A stretch of DNA of 64,000 nt, from assembly GCF_030817015.1 (NCBI RefSeq), contig NZ_JAUSYS010000001.1:1860001-1924000 (forward strand), in the 5' to 3' direction. The first letter of the stretch is position 1. Each line of letters begins with the position of its first letter. This document shows, one piece after another, positions 46,081-53,007 of this stretch. Origin of the DNA: Arthrobacter sp. V1I7 (GTDB taxonomy: Bacteria > Actinomycetota > Actinomycetes > Actinomycetales > Micrococcaceae). The notes below the pieces were generated by a model. It ran no database searches. It was not told the origin of the DNA and saw only the letters and a program-made list of their open reading frames with translations. The translations under genes were made by a program, and so were the position numbers.

Positions 46081-46533
46081 TCATTTGCCCGTGTTGAATT
46101 CGGCGCCGAACAGCTCAGCCGCGCCTACCGTGACCACCAGGGTTCCCGCCGGAGGACCGGCGGTGGCCCTGACCACACCGGCTTCCACCCGGCTTACGGT
46201 GATCCCCTGGCGCTCGTAGACCCGGGGGCCGGGGCTGGTGTAGACCCAGGTCTTCCCCTCGGCGTCGTACATCAGGGCGCCGTAGGGAATCAGGACCTCT
46301 GTTCCCGTGCCCGCCGTAATGGGCTCGGTTTTGAGTTCGAGCCGATCCACGCCGCGCTGGGTAAGGGTCAGCTTCGCGATGCCGGTGGCTGCGTTCTTCT
46401 CCACTTTGGCCGGGGCTTCACCCACGGCTGCCGGGGCGGCGACGGGCGCGGCGCAGGCCGGGAGGGAGAACACGAGGGCTGCACAGACAGCGGCCGCCAG
46501 GGGCAGGCGCCGTTGGGGCTTTTGGCTGGTCAT
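46081..46533 (-). CDS. Small lipoprotein, adaptor-like, between two RND permeases
   Basis: A 150-residue secreted lipoprotein. The signal peptide has a basic start (TSQKPQRR), a hydrophobic core, and the lipobox LPAC near residue 26. The mature part has beta-rich segments such as EVLIPYGALMYDAEGKTWVYT and ERQGITVSRVEAGVVRATAGP, which match the C-terminal beta-barrel and membrane-proximal domains of membrane fusion proteins. No coiled-coil hairpin or lipoyl domain is present, so it is a minimal adaptor. It starts with ATG overlapping the stop of the upstream permease (ATGA) and ends one base before the next permease. Confidence 0.72.
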   Translation of the reverse strand: MTSQKPQRRLPLAAAVCAALVFSLPACAAPVAAPAAVGEAPAKVEKNAATGIAKLTLTQRGVDRLELKTEPITAGTGTEVLIPYGALMYDAEGKTWVYTSPGPRVYERQGITVSRVEAGVVRATAGPPAGTLVVTVGAAELFGAEFNTGK

Positions 46534-49500
46534 TTTGCTTCCACCTTTTCCTGCATAACGGGCTGAACGGGGACTTCCGATTCGTAGACTTCCGACCACT
46601 CTTCGGGTGCGGTGCGGGGACCGAACCACAGGGTCAGGAGAGGGAACACCAACAGCGCCACAAGCGTCGTGGTAAGGAGGCCGCCCACAATGATCAGCAG
46701 CATCGGGACGATCAAGGCCTGGCCGACGGTTCCTCCGAGAAGAGCCGGTGGTATCAGGACCACGACTGGGATGAGGGCTGACTTCAGGACCGGCGATACC
46801 CGCTCCCGGGCTGCCGTCAGAACGACCTCCGAACGGGACGTGTGCGGCGCGGAACGCCACAGCTCATCCGCCCTGGCTGACAACAGGGTCGCGTTGCGCG
46901 CAGCGATGGCCAGCACCGCAGCAAACGCGGTCAGTGAGAGCCAGGAGAGCGACGCTGCACCGATCCACGCGACCACCGCCGCGCCGGCAAGCGCGGCCGG
47001 CAGTGCCAGGAAGACGGCGAGGGCCAGCTTCCAGCTCCGCACTGCTGTCTGGAGCAGAAGCAGGATGCCCACAAGGGCGGCCGCTCCAACCCAGAGCACC
47101 ACAGCGTCGGCAGCGCGCAGCTCGCTGTACTTCGCGGGAATCTCCGCGTGGTATTCAAGCGGGAACTGGATTTGCTTTATTGCCGCTTCAATATCGCGCT
47201 GGATGTCGGCCAAGGGCCGTCCGCTGACGTCGGCTACGATGTCGATCCGCCGCGAGGTGGCGTCGTGCTCGATGACTACCTCGTTGGGGACCATCCGGAC
47301 CGCGGCGATCGCGCCCAGCTGGACGTGCCCGCCGTCGGGGGTATCGAGGAGCAGTTCACGGATGCTGGTCAGGTCATCCCTGACGTCGAGCGCGCCGCGT
47401 ACGACCACTTCAAACACCTTCTGTTGCTCGAAGAGGTTGCCGACGATGACACCCTGCATCAGGGTGGCGGCAGCGCGCCTGGCGTCGCCGGGCTTGATGC
47501 CGACCCTTTGTGCCGCCTCGAGGTTGACCTCGACCTCGACGATCGGCGTCATGGGCGTGGCATTGATGGTCGGGTTCTGCACGCCGCTGATGTTCGAGAG
47601 TGCCTTCCGGACCTCTTCGGCCTTTTCGCGCAGGACCGGCATCTCCGTGCCGTAGACCCGGACCGCAAAGCCCGGTTCCATGCTGCTGCGCCTGTCGCCG
47701 ATTTCCTGCTGCGAGTAGTTCGAGACGTTATGGGCGATACCCGGGTAGCCCTGGACCACGTCCCGGACTGCCTGCTCTGTTTCACTGAAGTCGGCATCGG
47801 CGGCAACCGACACCCAGAGTTCGGCTGCATTGTTTCCGACAACCTGGTCCGAGGTGATGGCCCGGCCGATATGGCCGCCAACGCCGGTTACGCCCGGCAC
47901 TGCCCGCAGTTCCTCTGAGGCTTTGGATGCGATCCGGCGGACCTCGTCAGTGGATGTACCGGCCGCGGTGTCCCACTGAACCAGCAGGGTCCTGTCCGGC
48001 AGGGTGGGAACGAGCTGCCGGTTGGCCATCAGTTGGGATCCGGCGGCGAGGCCGAGTACACCGATGACGGCAACGGCGACCAGACTGAGGGCGCGGCGGG
48101 AACGGGCGGCTTCCACGGCCCGGCCGTAGTAGGCACGCGCGCGTCCTGCGGTTGGAGACTCCGGGCGGGTTGCAGTGTCCCGGGGCAGCAGCATCTGCGC
48201 CAGTACGGGCGTCACGGCGAGGCCGACAAGCAGCCCGGCCGCAAGAGCCAGCGCCAGCGACCAGAAGAGCGGCTGGAAGAAGGAGCCGCCGACACCGGTC
48301 ACGAACAGCGTCGGAAGCAGGGCGACCAGCATGATAAGTGAGGCGTGGAAGAGCGGCGTGCGGACACCACGGACCACGTTGATGATGCGGGACCTCAGGG
48401 TGGCATCCGTTTCCGTGGCCACAGTGATCAGTGGCCGACGCCGCTGTGCCTGGACATCCTCCACGATGTCGCCCACGATCACGGAAAACGCCGAGCAGGA
48501 TGCCGAGCAGAATGGTGATGTTGAGCGTGGCGTTCTGTGCGTGGAGCACTACCGCCGCCGTCATGACGGTGGTGGTGATCGCCACGAGCGCGATCACGGC
48601 GACCCGCCAGGAACGGAAGAGCAGCCAGAACAGCGCCACTGCGATCAGCAGGCTGATCAACAGCGCTACGCCAAGACCGTCCACGGTGTCCTGGACGGCA
48701 GTGGCGGGACGGAACACGCTGGTGTCGATCTCGACGCCGGTAAGCCCGGGCTCCATGTCCCTCAGGGCTGCCTCGACAGCCTCGGTGACCTGCACTGTGC
48801 TGGTGCCTGGGAACTTTTCAATAACCAGCATCAGGCCCGCATCCTGGCCGACGACGGCGTCGCCGATCAGGGGCTGATGGTCTTCCTTGACTTGGGCGAT
48901 GTCGCCCAGCACCATCGGCTGGGGCGCGTCCTCCACACTTACCTTGGCCAGATCGGCCGGGGTGCGGATCGGAAGGACGTGTTGGATGCCCAAACGCTGG
49001 CTGGGTGACTCTACAAAACCGCCGGTGCCCGGCGTCGAGGCCTCAAGGAAGGTCAACGGTGAAACCCAGACGGCATTGCCGGTGGTCCTGATGATCTGTT
49101 CCAGGGTGATCCCCTTGTCGCGCAACTGGGTGGGAGTGACCTCAACCTGCAGCTGCTGTTCACGCTGGCCCCAGATGGACACGTTTGCCACCCCGGCAAT
49201 GCCGATCAGCCGCGGCTTGATCTTCCACCGCGCCAGGACGGACATCTCGATGCCGGAGAGCTGCTTGGAGTTCAACCGGACCATCAGCACACGGCTGGTG
49301 GAGGACATCGGTTGCATGAGGAGCGGCGGAGTCGAGACGTTAGGCAGGGCGTGCGCCTGCGTCATCCGTTCCGCCACAAGCTGGCGGGCGCGGAGGAGGT
49401 CCGTGCCGGGCTCGAAAACGAGTTCGATCGATGACAGCCCCGGTACGGATTTCGACCGGATCTCATCCAGCCACGCCACTCCATTGAGGAGATCGGCCTC

Positions 49501-49707
49501 CATCGGGGAAGTAATGAGCTGTTCAATTTCAACAGCGGACAGGCCCAAGGCCTCAGTCTGGATCTCAACATGCGCCGGTGCGAACTCAGGCATGGTGTCC
49601 ACCGCAATGTGCGGAACGTTAACAACACCAAGGGCAATGAGCCCGGCCGCGAGGGCGAGTACCAGGATGCGGAACTGGATACTGAACCGCGTTACCCAGC
49701 CAAACAT
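46530..49707 (-). pseudogene. Heavy-metal-type RND efflux permease (first permease), broken by one frameshift
   Basis: The upstream frame (49707 down to the shift) begins MFGWVTRFSIQFRILVLALA and has MPEFAPAHVEIQTEALG. It runs to NITILLGILLGV. The downstream frame picks up with SVIVGDIVEDVQAQRRR and continues to 46530. Deleting one A of the run at 48485-48488 (plus strand) restores one protein of about 1058 residues. The TM4 relay reads VIVGDIVEDV: the first Asp of the usual pair is Gly (G412) and only D413 remains. It may therefore work differently from, or together with, the second permease. The lesion is either real or an assembly error in a homopolymer. Confidence 0.87.
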
Positions 49708-50258: not shown

Positions 50259-50278
50259 GGAGGCGCTAAAGTAGATGT

Positions 50279-50305
50279 ATGCGTGCGAACCTTCTGCTTA
50301 GCTAG
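50279..50305 (+). CDS. leuS leader peptide with three Leu codons
   Basis: ATG to TAG encodes [14 protein letters not shown] and CTT in a row directly before Ser and the stop. It lies 177 nt upstream of leuS and just before a hairpin series that ends in a terminator. A -10-like TAAAGT (50267-50272) places the expected transcription start at or near 50279, so the peptide may be read from a leaderless message. An overlapping ATG at 50275 in another frame gives MYACEPSA. The arrangement is what ribosome-mediated attenuation needs: scarcity of Leu-tRNA stalls the ribosome on the Leu codons. Confidence 0.5.
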
Positions 50306-50317
50306 CCGCCCGGCATC

Positions 50318-50370
50318 CCGAGGAGAACTCGGACTGTCGAGCGGCCGCCCCTCCGCGTCGAGGGGCTTTT
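50318..50370 (+). terminator. Leader hairpin and attenuator terminator upstream of leuS
   Basis: The terminator is a perfect 7-bp stem (GCCCCTC at 50347-50353 with 50360-50366) with a 6-nt loop and TTTT at 50367-50370. Before it, CCGAG/CTCGG (50318-50332) forms a smaller hairpin. CTCG at 50328-50331 can instead pair with CGAG at 50338-50341 or with CGAG at 50359-50362 in the terminator arm. These alternatives could form an antiterminator, although no single strong one stands out. A further GGCCC/GGGCC hairpin lies near 50381-50394. Confidence 0.5.
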
Positions 50371-50481
50371 GTGTGTCTGGGGCCCTTTCGGGCCGGCAGC
50401 AGGGGACAGGGGCCAGAGCGGGACGGCCCCGGAAGTACGGACTTGACGGTAATCAGGCTTGAAGAACAGAAGAGGCCAGCA

Positions 50482-53007
50482 GTGAGCGTTCAGCCGGAGA
50501 CAGAGACCGGAACAGCAGGAGTCGGAACGGACGGCCCGGAAGAGGGTGCCTACAGTTTTGCGGCGATGGAAGCCAGGTGGCCGCAGGTCTGGGAGGACCT
50601 CAAGGTCTTCACGCCCCTCGAAGACGGTTCCAGGGAACCCCGCTACGTGCTGGACATGTTCCCTTACCCGTCCGGCGACCTGCACATGGGCCACGCCGAG
50701 GCGTTCGCGATGGGCGACGTCGTCGCGCGTTACCTGCGCCAGCAGGGCTACGACGTGCTGCACCCGATCGGCTGGGACTCCTTCGGTCTGCCCGCGGAAA
50801 ACGCCGCGATTAAGCGCAACGCCCACCCCAGCGAGTGGACCTACGCCAATATCGAGACACAGGCCGCATCCTTCAAGCGCTACGCCATTTCCGCCGACTG
50901 GTCCCGGCGGATCCACACCTCGGACCCGGAGTACTACCGCTGGACGCAGTGGCTGTTCAAGCGCTTCTACGAGCGCGGCCTGGCGTACCGCAAGGATTCG
51001 CCGGTTAACTGGTGCCCCAGGGACCAGACGGTGCTCGCCAACGAGCAGGTCGTGAACGGCGCCTGCGAGCGCTGCGGCACTCCCGTCACCAAGAAGTCCC
51101 TGAACCAGTGGTACTTCAAGATCACCGAGTACGCTGACCGTCTGCTGGACGACATGGACGAACTGCGCGGCCACTGGCCCGAGCGGGTTCTGGCGATGCA
51201 GAAGAACTGGATCGGCCGCTCCGAAGGCGCACATGTCCACTTTGTGATCGAGGCCGACGGCGAGAAGCCCGCCAAAGATGTCACGGTCTTCACCACCCGG
51301 CCGGACACCCTGTACGGCGCCACGTTCTTCGTCGTCGCCGCTGATGCCCCGCTGGCCCTCGAGCTGGTGACCGGGGAGCACTCCGCGGCCCTGGCCGCCT
51401 ACCGCGAACAGGTCAAGGCCCTCTCGGAAATTGAACGCCAGTCCACCGAGCGGGAGAAGACCGGCGTCTTCACCGGCCGCTACGCCATCAACCCGCTGAG
51501 CGGCGAAAAGCTGCCGGTCTGGGCCGCCGACTACGTACTGGCTGATTACGGCACCGGCGCCATCATGGCGGTGCCGGCCCATGACCAGCGCGACCTCGAC
51601 TTCGCGAGGACCTTCGGCCTGCCGGTGCGGCCGGTCCTGGACACCGGTGAAGAAGATCCCGCTGTCACCGGGAAGGCGACCACAGGTGAAGGGACCCTGG
51701 TCAACTCGGGCGCGCTGAACGGACTGCCGAAGGAAGAGGCCATCCCGGCCGCCATCGAGATCCTGCAGGAGCAGGGCACGGGGGAGAAGTTCGTGAACTT
51801 CCGGCTGCGCGATTGGCTGCTGAGCCGGCAGCGCTTCTGGGGCACACCGATCCCGATCATCCATTGCCCGGCCTGCGGCGAGGTCCCGGTCCCGGACGAG
51901 CAGCTTCCGGTTGAGCTGCCGGCGGGGCTGCGCGGCGAGGACCTGTCCCCGAAGGGCACGTCACCGCTGGCCGCCGCGGAGAGCTGGGTCAACATCGAGT
52001 GCCCGAACTGCCACGGCCCGGCCAAGCGGGACACCGACACCATGGACACCTTCGTGGACTCGTCCTGGTACTTCCTGCGGTTCGTGTCCCCGCAGTACAC
52101 CGAAGGTCCCTTCGATCCCGCGAAAATCAACGACTGGATGCCGGTCGGCCAGTACGTCGGCGGCGTCGAACACGCCATCCTGCACCTGCTGTACGCACGG
52201 TTCTTCACCAAGGTCATCCATGACCTGGGCCTGATCGAGGCCGACGAACCCTTCCGGGCCCTGCTGAACCAGGGCCAGGTGCTCAACGGCGGCAAGGCCA
52301 TGAGCAAGTCGCTGGGCAACGGTGTGGACCTCAGTGAGCAGCTGGACAAATTCGGCGTCGACGCGGTCCGCCTGACAATGATCTTCGCCTCCCCGCCGGA
52401 AGACGACGTCGACTGGGCGGATGTCTCGCCGTCGGGCTCCGCGAAGTTCCTGGCCCGCGCCTGGCGCCTGGGGCAGGACGTCACGAGCGCGCCCGGCGTC
52501 GACTTCTCCACCGGCAACCGTGCCCTGCGCACGGTCACCCACCGCACCATTGCCGACGCCGAAGCCCTGCTGGACAACAACAAGTTCAACGTCGTCGTGG
52601 CGAAGCTGATGGAGCTGGTCAACGCGACCCGCAAGACCATCGACAGCGGCGCCGGCGGCGCGGACCCGGCGGTCCGCGAGGCCGTCGAGGCCGTCGCGGT
52701 CATCCTGAGCCTGTTTGCGCCATACACGGCCGAGGATCTGTGGAACGTGCTGGGTCACCCGGCCTCCGTAGCCAACGCCGGCTGGCCCGCGCACGACGAG
52801 GCGCTCCTGGTGCAGGACACGGTCACCGCCGTCGTGCAGGTTCAGGGCAAGGTGCGGGACCGCCTTGAGGTTGCCGCGGGAATCGGCGAGGACGAACTGC
52901 GCGAGCTGGCGCTGGCGTCGGAGAACGTCCAGCGCGCCCTCGAGGGGCGCGGGATCCGCACTGTCATCGTGCGGGCGCCTAAGCTGGTCAACATCGTCCC
53001 GGCATAA
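50482..53007 (+). CDS. leuS: Leucyl-tRNA synthetase
   Basis: Charges tRNA-Leu. The 841-residue product is class I with HIGH-type motif HMGH in [14 protein letters not shown], the KMSKS loop as KAMSKSLGN, and zinc-type Cys pairs (GACERCGTP near residue 195 and HCPACGE further on). The CP1 editing domain has [14 protein letters not shown] and a [16 protein letters not shown] segment. I chose the GTG at 50482, which has AGAGG at 50471-50475. It is preceded by a 177-nt leader with a Leu-rich peptide and a terminator, and followed 84 nt later by a DegV gene. Confidence 0.96.

Follow-up and report, generated by a model that had tools for sequence, protein, structure and literature searches.

Attenuators upstream of leuS have been predicted in Streptomyces avermitilis and S. 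coelicolor, where Seliverstov et al. (2005; accessible text of PMC1262725) considered them to be classical. In 2021, the leuS leader peptide of S. lividans, LeuL2 (MRAVRLLLSEPR), was reported to be leaderless (accessible text of PMC8079986). Attenuation has also been described for M. tuberculosis ilvB1 (PMC13236596) and for C. glutamicum ilvBNC, where overlapping terminator and antiterminator structures were modelled (PMC11857589), both as given in the accessible portions of these papers. According to the same text of PMC1262725, which cites earlier work, altering codons of the ilvB leader in S. coelicolor was without effect, and doing so in the leuA leader had effects that do not agree with classical attenuation. 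The name leuS does not occur in the main text of PMC4833913, and in a literature search with most subscription journals outside its scope, none of the titles listed dealt with a leuS leader peptide or leuS attenuation in Arthrobacter, nor with a leader peptide of citramalate synthase.

The stretch of DNA analysed here (the window, 64,000 nucleotides of Arthrobacter sp. V1I7) shares with the actinobacterial class of leuS attenuators a short ORF with a leucine run upstream of leuS and an intrinsic terminator between that ORF and leuS. An earlier note on this DNA had proposed such an attenuator in an actinobacterium; the proposal is supported by comparison, but the element is not new in kind, a leuS attenuator being already known from the prediction made for two Streptomyces species in 2005.

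The leuS leader of the window

In the 5' to 3' direction, the locus comprises a leader frame, a hairpin (H1), an intrinsic terminator and leuS (Table 1). The observation of a leader peptide, hairpins and a terminator before leuS is confirmed: the nine-codon frame with its three Leu codons ahead of the stop, the 7-bp terminator with a T run inside the leuS leader and the -10-like box can all be read directly, while the "small hairpin" described after the frame is present and larger than implied. H1 starts on the G of the leader stop codon, with its 5' arm 8 nt downstream of where the last Leu codon begins, and the terminator stem (GCCCCTC/GAGGGGC, 50347-50366) is followed by TTTTGTGTGT. A second ATG, four bases 5' of the leader start and upstream of the predicted transcription start, opens the frame MYACEPSA plus stop (50275-50301).

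Table 1. Features of the leuS locus, in window positions.
Feature	Position	Strand	Basis or remark
-10 box TAAAGT	50267..50272	+	Read directly; six bases upstream of the leader ATG
Leader peptide frame ATG CGT GCG AAC CTT CTG CTT AGC TAG (MRANLLLS)	50279..50305	+	Read directly
Control codons CTT CTG CTT	50291..50299	+	Within the leader frame
Hairpin H1, base GCCGC...GCGGC	50305..50345	+	Fold and covariation
Intrinsic terminator: 7-bp stem, 6-nt loop, TTTT	50347..50370	+	Terminator scan and covariation
leuS, leucine--tRNA ligase, 841 aa, GTG start	50482..53007	+	TIGR00396, 966 bits (cut-off 548)

A promoter scan found no sigma-70 promoter with both hexamers, so that the promoter is called from the -10 box by itself. 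The terminator scan returned 1 site where 1.0 was expected by chance in the 1.1 kb scanned, meaning that the terminator taken singly is not significant, and the leader folds no better than its shuffled versions (z -0.85; 33 of 200 shuffles as good). With terminator and folding energy both ordinary in themselves, the case for the element is built on comparison. An RND-efflux-like ORF upstream of leuS runs in the opposite direction, and leuS therefore probably has its own promoter. On the minus strand of window 46530-49707, two overlapping ORFs (46530-48482 and 47947-49707) look like the pieces of a single RND efflux gene divided over two frames; the former matches the CusA/CzcA profile only from profile position 440 onwards and below the cut-off.

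Conservation, spread and geometry of the element

The comparison among relatives proposed in the earlier note had the outcome predicted there: upstream of leuS in many actinobacterial families, the Leu codons and the terminator are conserved, the stems covary and the promoter keeps a constant, leaderless spacing. The best 80 named leuS loci of a longer list were scanned for TAnnnT followed after 4-8 nt by a short ORF with Leu codons, the final counts being restricted to gaps of 6 or 7 nt between TAnnnT and the start. A leaderless Leu-run leader was found upstream of leuS in 51 of these best 80 loci (LLL 40, LL 5, L.L 6), with no such leader in the remaining 29. It was present in 47 of the 48 nearest loci (LLL 39, LL 3, L.L 5), the exception being L041 (492 nt examined), and the other 32 of the best 80 contributed LLL 1, LL 2, L.L 1 and 28 without leader. 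Loss of the Leu run in close relatives was looked for, and L004 (MRAILQLS) and L010 (MRAILVLS) still retain two of the three Leu codons. A search of 41 genomes of the genus, including the window's own, returned 30 loci; apart from the window itself, all 29 carry the leader (28 LLL, 1 LL). Among the best 80, no leader was found in the eight Kocuria loci nor in those of Rothia, Micrococcus, Yaniella and Nesterenkonia, so that these genera either lost the device or never had it, and the weak leaders MYSQFHLL (L045) and MRSQQLRLP (L075) may be due to chance.

The kin leader peptide has eight residues, with few exceptions, and the terminator motif GCCCCT..AGGGGCTTTT occurs in 75 of 80 kin leaders. 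In four loci (L018, L103, L104 and L106) the leader UAG is gone and the ORF extends into H1 (MRAILLLSQPPGIRTNG and similar), the terminator being kept. The kin also share a TGTCCGG motif downstream of the U run; searched as a pattern in the window's genome, it had 3 matches and its reversed control 1, from which no claim is drawn. One record titled Sporosarcina beigongshangi (L030) carries an Arthrobacter-like leuS (81% identity) with leader, and is probably a mislabelled or mixed assembly.

Two alignments, A1 and A2, were thinned from 68 leaders (L018, L045, L103, L104 and L106 left out), and a covariance model was built on the 31 sequences of A2, all from the window's kin. In A2, 97.1% of cells are paired and there are 18 two-sided changes, against 5.9 in shuffles and 0-8 in slid versions; in A3, formed by 60 matches fitted to the model (ten of them not leuS), two-sided changes occur in 15 of 16 pairs. 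The model detected the element in other actinobacterial families. With E-values up to 0.5 accepted, it matched 150 of the 296 genomes searched in the class, and with E-values up to 0.001, 17 of the 198 searched in the phylum. Eighty matches were fetched, a non-random sample chosen by score and to cover second matches, and in 57 of them (50 of 60 plus 7 of 20) the gene 3' of the element is leuS, as judged by tblastn. In a sample independent of the model, leuS was obtained from 59 of 60 class genomes; once the window's genome and another of the genus had been set aside, there were 57 upstream regions to read. A match at E up to 0.001 was present in 24 of them, always on the leuS strand, and the same scan found no leaderless Leu-run ORF in the other 33 (4 under 200 nt). 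Since 5 of the 57 regions are under 260 nt (contig end), and in at least one genome a model match precedes a leuS piece on another contig, 24 of 57 is a lower bound. One genome (G248) holds two leuS types, with 65% and 41% identity to the window LeuS (L114 and L115), each with its own Leu leader and terminator, which suggests that the switch was retained across synthetase replacement or doubling.

The geometry was studied in 48 leuS elements, that is, the 50 among the first 60 matches minus two partial model matches (L169 and L170), which were excluded from the spacing, codon and folding/pairing computations. In all 48 model-found leaders, TAnnnT ends 6 nt (31) or 7 nt (17) 5' of the start codon, which is ATG in 29 and GTG in 19; the background frequency of this spacing is 106 in 12121 other ATG/GTG of 117 loci. 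As the covariance model contains no promoter, the spacing is independent of it, and it is as promoter spacing only that the leaderless start is seen. Of 103 distinct LLL leaders, 98 end their Leu run with CTT, a codon used for 2 of the 71 leucines of the window leuS, and the first base of the last Leu codon lies 8 nt from the H1 5' arm in 116 of 117 elements (arm motif not found in one). Collection through the model or the promoter pattern gives preference to elements that can be aligned, yet the peptide flanks of the Leu run vary in length. On the sequences compared, the element is far beyond chance; a chance ORF is ruled out by conservation.

Elements built in the same way with different control codons stand before ilvB, leuA and citramalate synthase genes. 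Among the 23 non-leuS matches, nine are before acetolactate synthase (Val/Leu/Ile codons; L113, L118, L120, L122, L124, L126, L187, L190 and L191; gene identified by NCBIfam in one and by translation in 8), eight before citramalate synthase (6 checked) and three before 2-isopropylmalate synthase (L174, L175 and L189, all three checked; Leu codons, e.g. MSQNLLLT; partly outside the class). The remaining three have no gene assignment, L112 and L188 looking like lone terminators and L176 being cut by a contig end. The cimA elements with Ile codons (L116:280-383, L128:2037-2140, L180:240-341, L181, L182, L183:268-349 and L184:2089-2182) have leader peptides such as MSFWMIII, MFYCMIII, MAQALIIG, MAIVSIIIN and MHRTAIIIN, and citramalate synthase identity was confirmed for L116, L128, L180, L183 and L184; L130, also cimA, shows a partial element only. 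These Ile-codon elements constitute a candidate isoleucine attenuator of cimA.

Ribosome position, hairpin H1 and the proposed switching step

A ribosome covers 12 nt beyond the start of its A site. An antiterminator was searched for by computing the pairing of the terminator 5' arm with upstream sequence before the 3' arm exists, in transcripts masked up to that limit. The E. coli trpL, thrL and leuL controls gave 0.71, 1.0 and 0.85 with the ribosome at the control codons and 0.00-0.01 at the stop. In the leuS elements (70 kin/47 others), a ribosome on the first Leu codon gave 0.03/0.06, one on the last Leu codon 0.27/0.22 and one on the stop 0.37/0.28, compared with 0.21/0.27 for no ribosome; a footprint 3 nt longer raised those at the last Leu codon to 0.40/0.28, with 26 of 70 kin at 0.5 or more. 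The test that recovers the classical antiterminator in E. coli trp, thr and leu thus found none in the leuS elements, where a weak one may still form. The attenuation reading of the earlier note is supported by comparison, without the classical antiterminator being found. The equilibrium probability of the terminator was near 1 under every mask, in the E. coli controls likewise, and is therefore uninformative.

H1 behaved differently. Its computed closure (kin/others) was 0.85/0.95 without ribosome and 0.84/0.94 with a ribosome on the first Leu codon; it fell to 0.70/0.77 on the second, to 0.33/0.45 on the last and to 0.06/0.08 on the stop (66 and 40 elements in the latter case). In these computations it is H1, and not an antiterminator, that responds to ribosome position, being predicted open once the last Leu codon or the stop is occupied. 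Taken together with the constant spacing and the selection for CUU, this leads to a reading in which H1 is the sensor and the last Leu codon is decisive.

The best explanation of these data, held with somewhat more confidence than doubt, is a ribosome-mediated transcription attenuator of leuS. Transcription would start on the leader ATG, and a 70S ribosome would load on this leaderless start codon and read the eight codons. With ample charged Leu-tRNA, it would reach the stop and leave, allowing H1 to close and the abutting terminator to form, so that most transcripts would end near 50370. When charged Leu-tRNA is scarce, the ribosome would wait on the Leu codons; on the last one, nearly always CUU and 8 nt from H1, it would cover the H1 5' arm and keep the hairpin open. 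Open H1 would lower termination, presumably by weakening the terminator, and RNA polymerase would enter leuS. Leucine-responsive attenuation is likely, with the transcription start, the leucine response and the switching step inferred. With H1 closed at the first Leu codon and most open at the stop, the model depends on a ribosome that stalls for the most part at CUU and is soon released at the stop, where the open state would be short because the ribosome leaves. Several observations stand against it: the antiterminator not found by the folding test; the closed H1 at the first Leu codon, which may be the earliest place for a starved ribosome to halt; the absence of the element from 29 of the best 80 named loci and from 33 of the 57 leuS regions; and the codon changes in the ilvB and leuA leaders of S. 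coelicolor cited in PMC1262725.

A textbook three-hairpin attenuator, with H1 as 1:2, the terminator as 3:4 and a 2:3 antiterminator (H1 3' arm with the terminator 5' arm or loop) too weak or variable for RNAfold, is possible, if rather improbable. The climb in upstream pairing from the first to the last Leu codon, and further in kin with the longer footprint, would fit it, as would the antiterminator hairpins drawn by Seliverstov et al. for the Streptomyces leuS cases that they term classical (accessible text of PMC1262725). The E. coli controls, however, reach far higher values, and pairing in the leuS elements is as high or higher at the stop, which is the wrong way round. A pairing of the H1 3' arm with the terminator loop, attractive in the window and in the Streptomyces examples, was then not supported, its energy being -6.15 kcal/mol compared with -6.09 with shuffled loops (n 103), and no better than with swapped loops (p 0.21).

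The sign of the response could also be the opposite: closed H1, kept as long as the ribosome waits on the first Leu codons, would itself bring about antitermination or pausing, and arrival of the ribosome at the stop would open it. The computed closure at the first and second Leu codons and opening at the stop are what would be expected of an antiterminator, but H1 does not overlap the terminator stem and hardly affects the terminator 5' arm (0.03/0.06 at the first Leu codon), so that there is no competition by pairing; this reading is considered unlikely. Less probable still is a constant low leuS read-through set by the leaderless frame and the terminator and not tuned by leucine: the S. coelicolor ilvB leader result cited in the accessible text of PMC1262725 speaks for it, but it offers no reason to keep the Leu run, the CUU codon and the 8-nt spacing. 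Translational control of the kind suggested for the leuA LEU element, in which the Leu run would pair with the ribosome-binding site of leuS and a stalled ribosome would free that site, is very improbable: the lowest-energy fold of the window leader does join the Leu codons to the region just before leuS, but such control has no need of a conserved terminator, and native pairs are no better than swapped ones (-13.05 against -13.52, p 0.17, in the others; -10.01 against -10.20, p 0.21, in kin, where they are also weaker than those with other families' sites, -11.57).

The leuS element is real and old, and it probably works as an attenuator. A wider version can be offered only tentatively, and is on the whole doubtful: a widespread actinobacterial attenuator lacking a base-paired antiterminator, in which, through the fixed 8-nt spacing, a leaderless ribosome would open the adjacent H1 only by stalling on the last control codon, and the state of H1, next to the terminator, would directly set termination, serving leuS (Leu), ilvB (Val/Leu), leuA (Leu) and citramalate synthase (Ile).

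Comparison with known attenuators

T-box leaders of aminoacyl-tRNA synthetase genes have the same kind of target and signal as the leuS element. T-box identity is nevertheless ruled out, as neither this nor any other Rfam family matched in the window at gathering thresholds; a search of the leader at E up to 10 returned only two unrelated chance-level matches. For the leuA LEU element, a pairing between the Leu run and the Shine-Dalgarno sequence was proposed; at leuS, no covariation was found for it, and this pairing is not supported. E. coli trpL, thrL and leuL share with the leuS elements the control codons and a hairpin before the terminator, but have the antiterminator that was not found in the latter. 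The actinobacterial ilvB attenuators, as presented in the accessible text of the papers cited above, have in common with them control codons, a terminator and a leader peptide encoded at the very 5' end of the transcript or close to it, and differ in target, in amino acids and in the overlapping antiterminator and terminator that were modelled.

The closest relatives are the Streptomyces leuS attenuators, which, in the accessible text of their descriptions, share with the window the leuS target, a leader peptide with LLL(S), reported as leaderless in S. lividans and predicted to be so in the window, and a terminator with a U run. In the class search, genomes of one family have exactly MRAVRLLLSEPR before leuS, in matches to the model built on the window's kin. 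The window peptide has eight residues and its stop lies before H1, whereas that of the Streptomyces leuS leader lies inside it; moreover, its authors called the Streptomyces element classical, with an antiterminator, and none was found in the present folding test. This leaves a concrete question, namely how a leaderless ribosome switches an actinobacterial terminator. The spread of the element, together with its covariation and fixed geometry, makes it probable that leucine-tRNA charging has governed leuS for a long time and commonly does so within the class. In summary, a 20-year-old prediction for two Streptomyces species is extended to many families of actinobacteria, backed by covarying stems and constant spacings.
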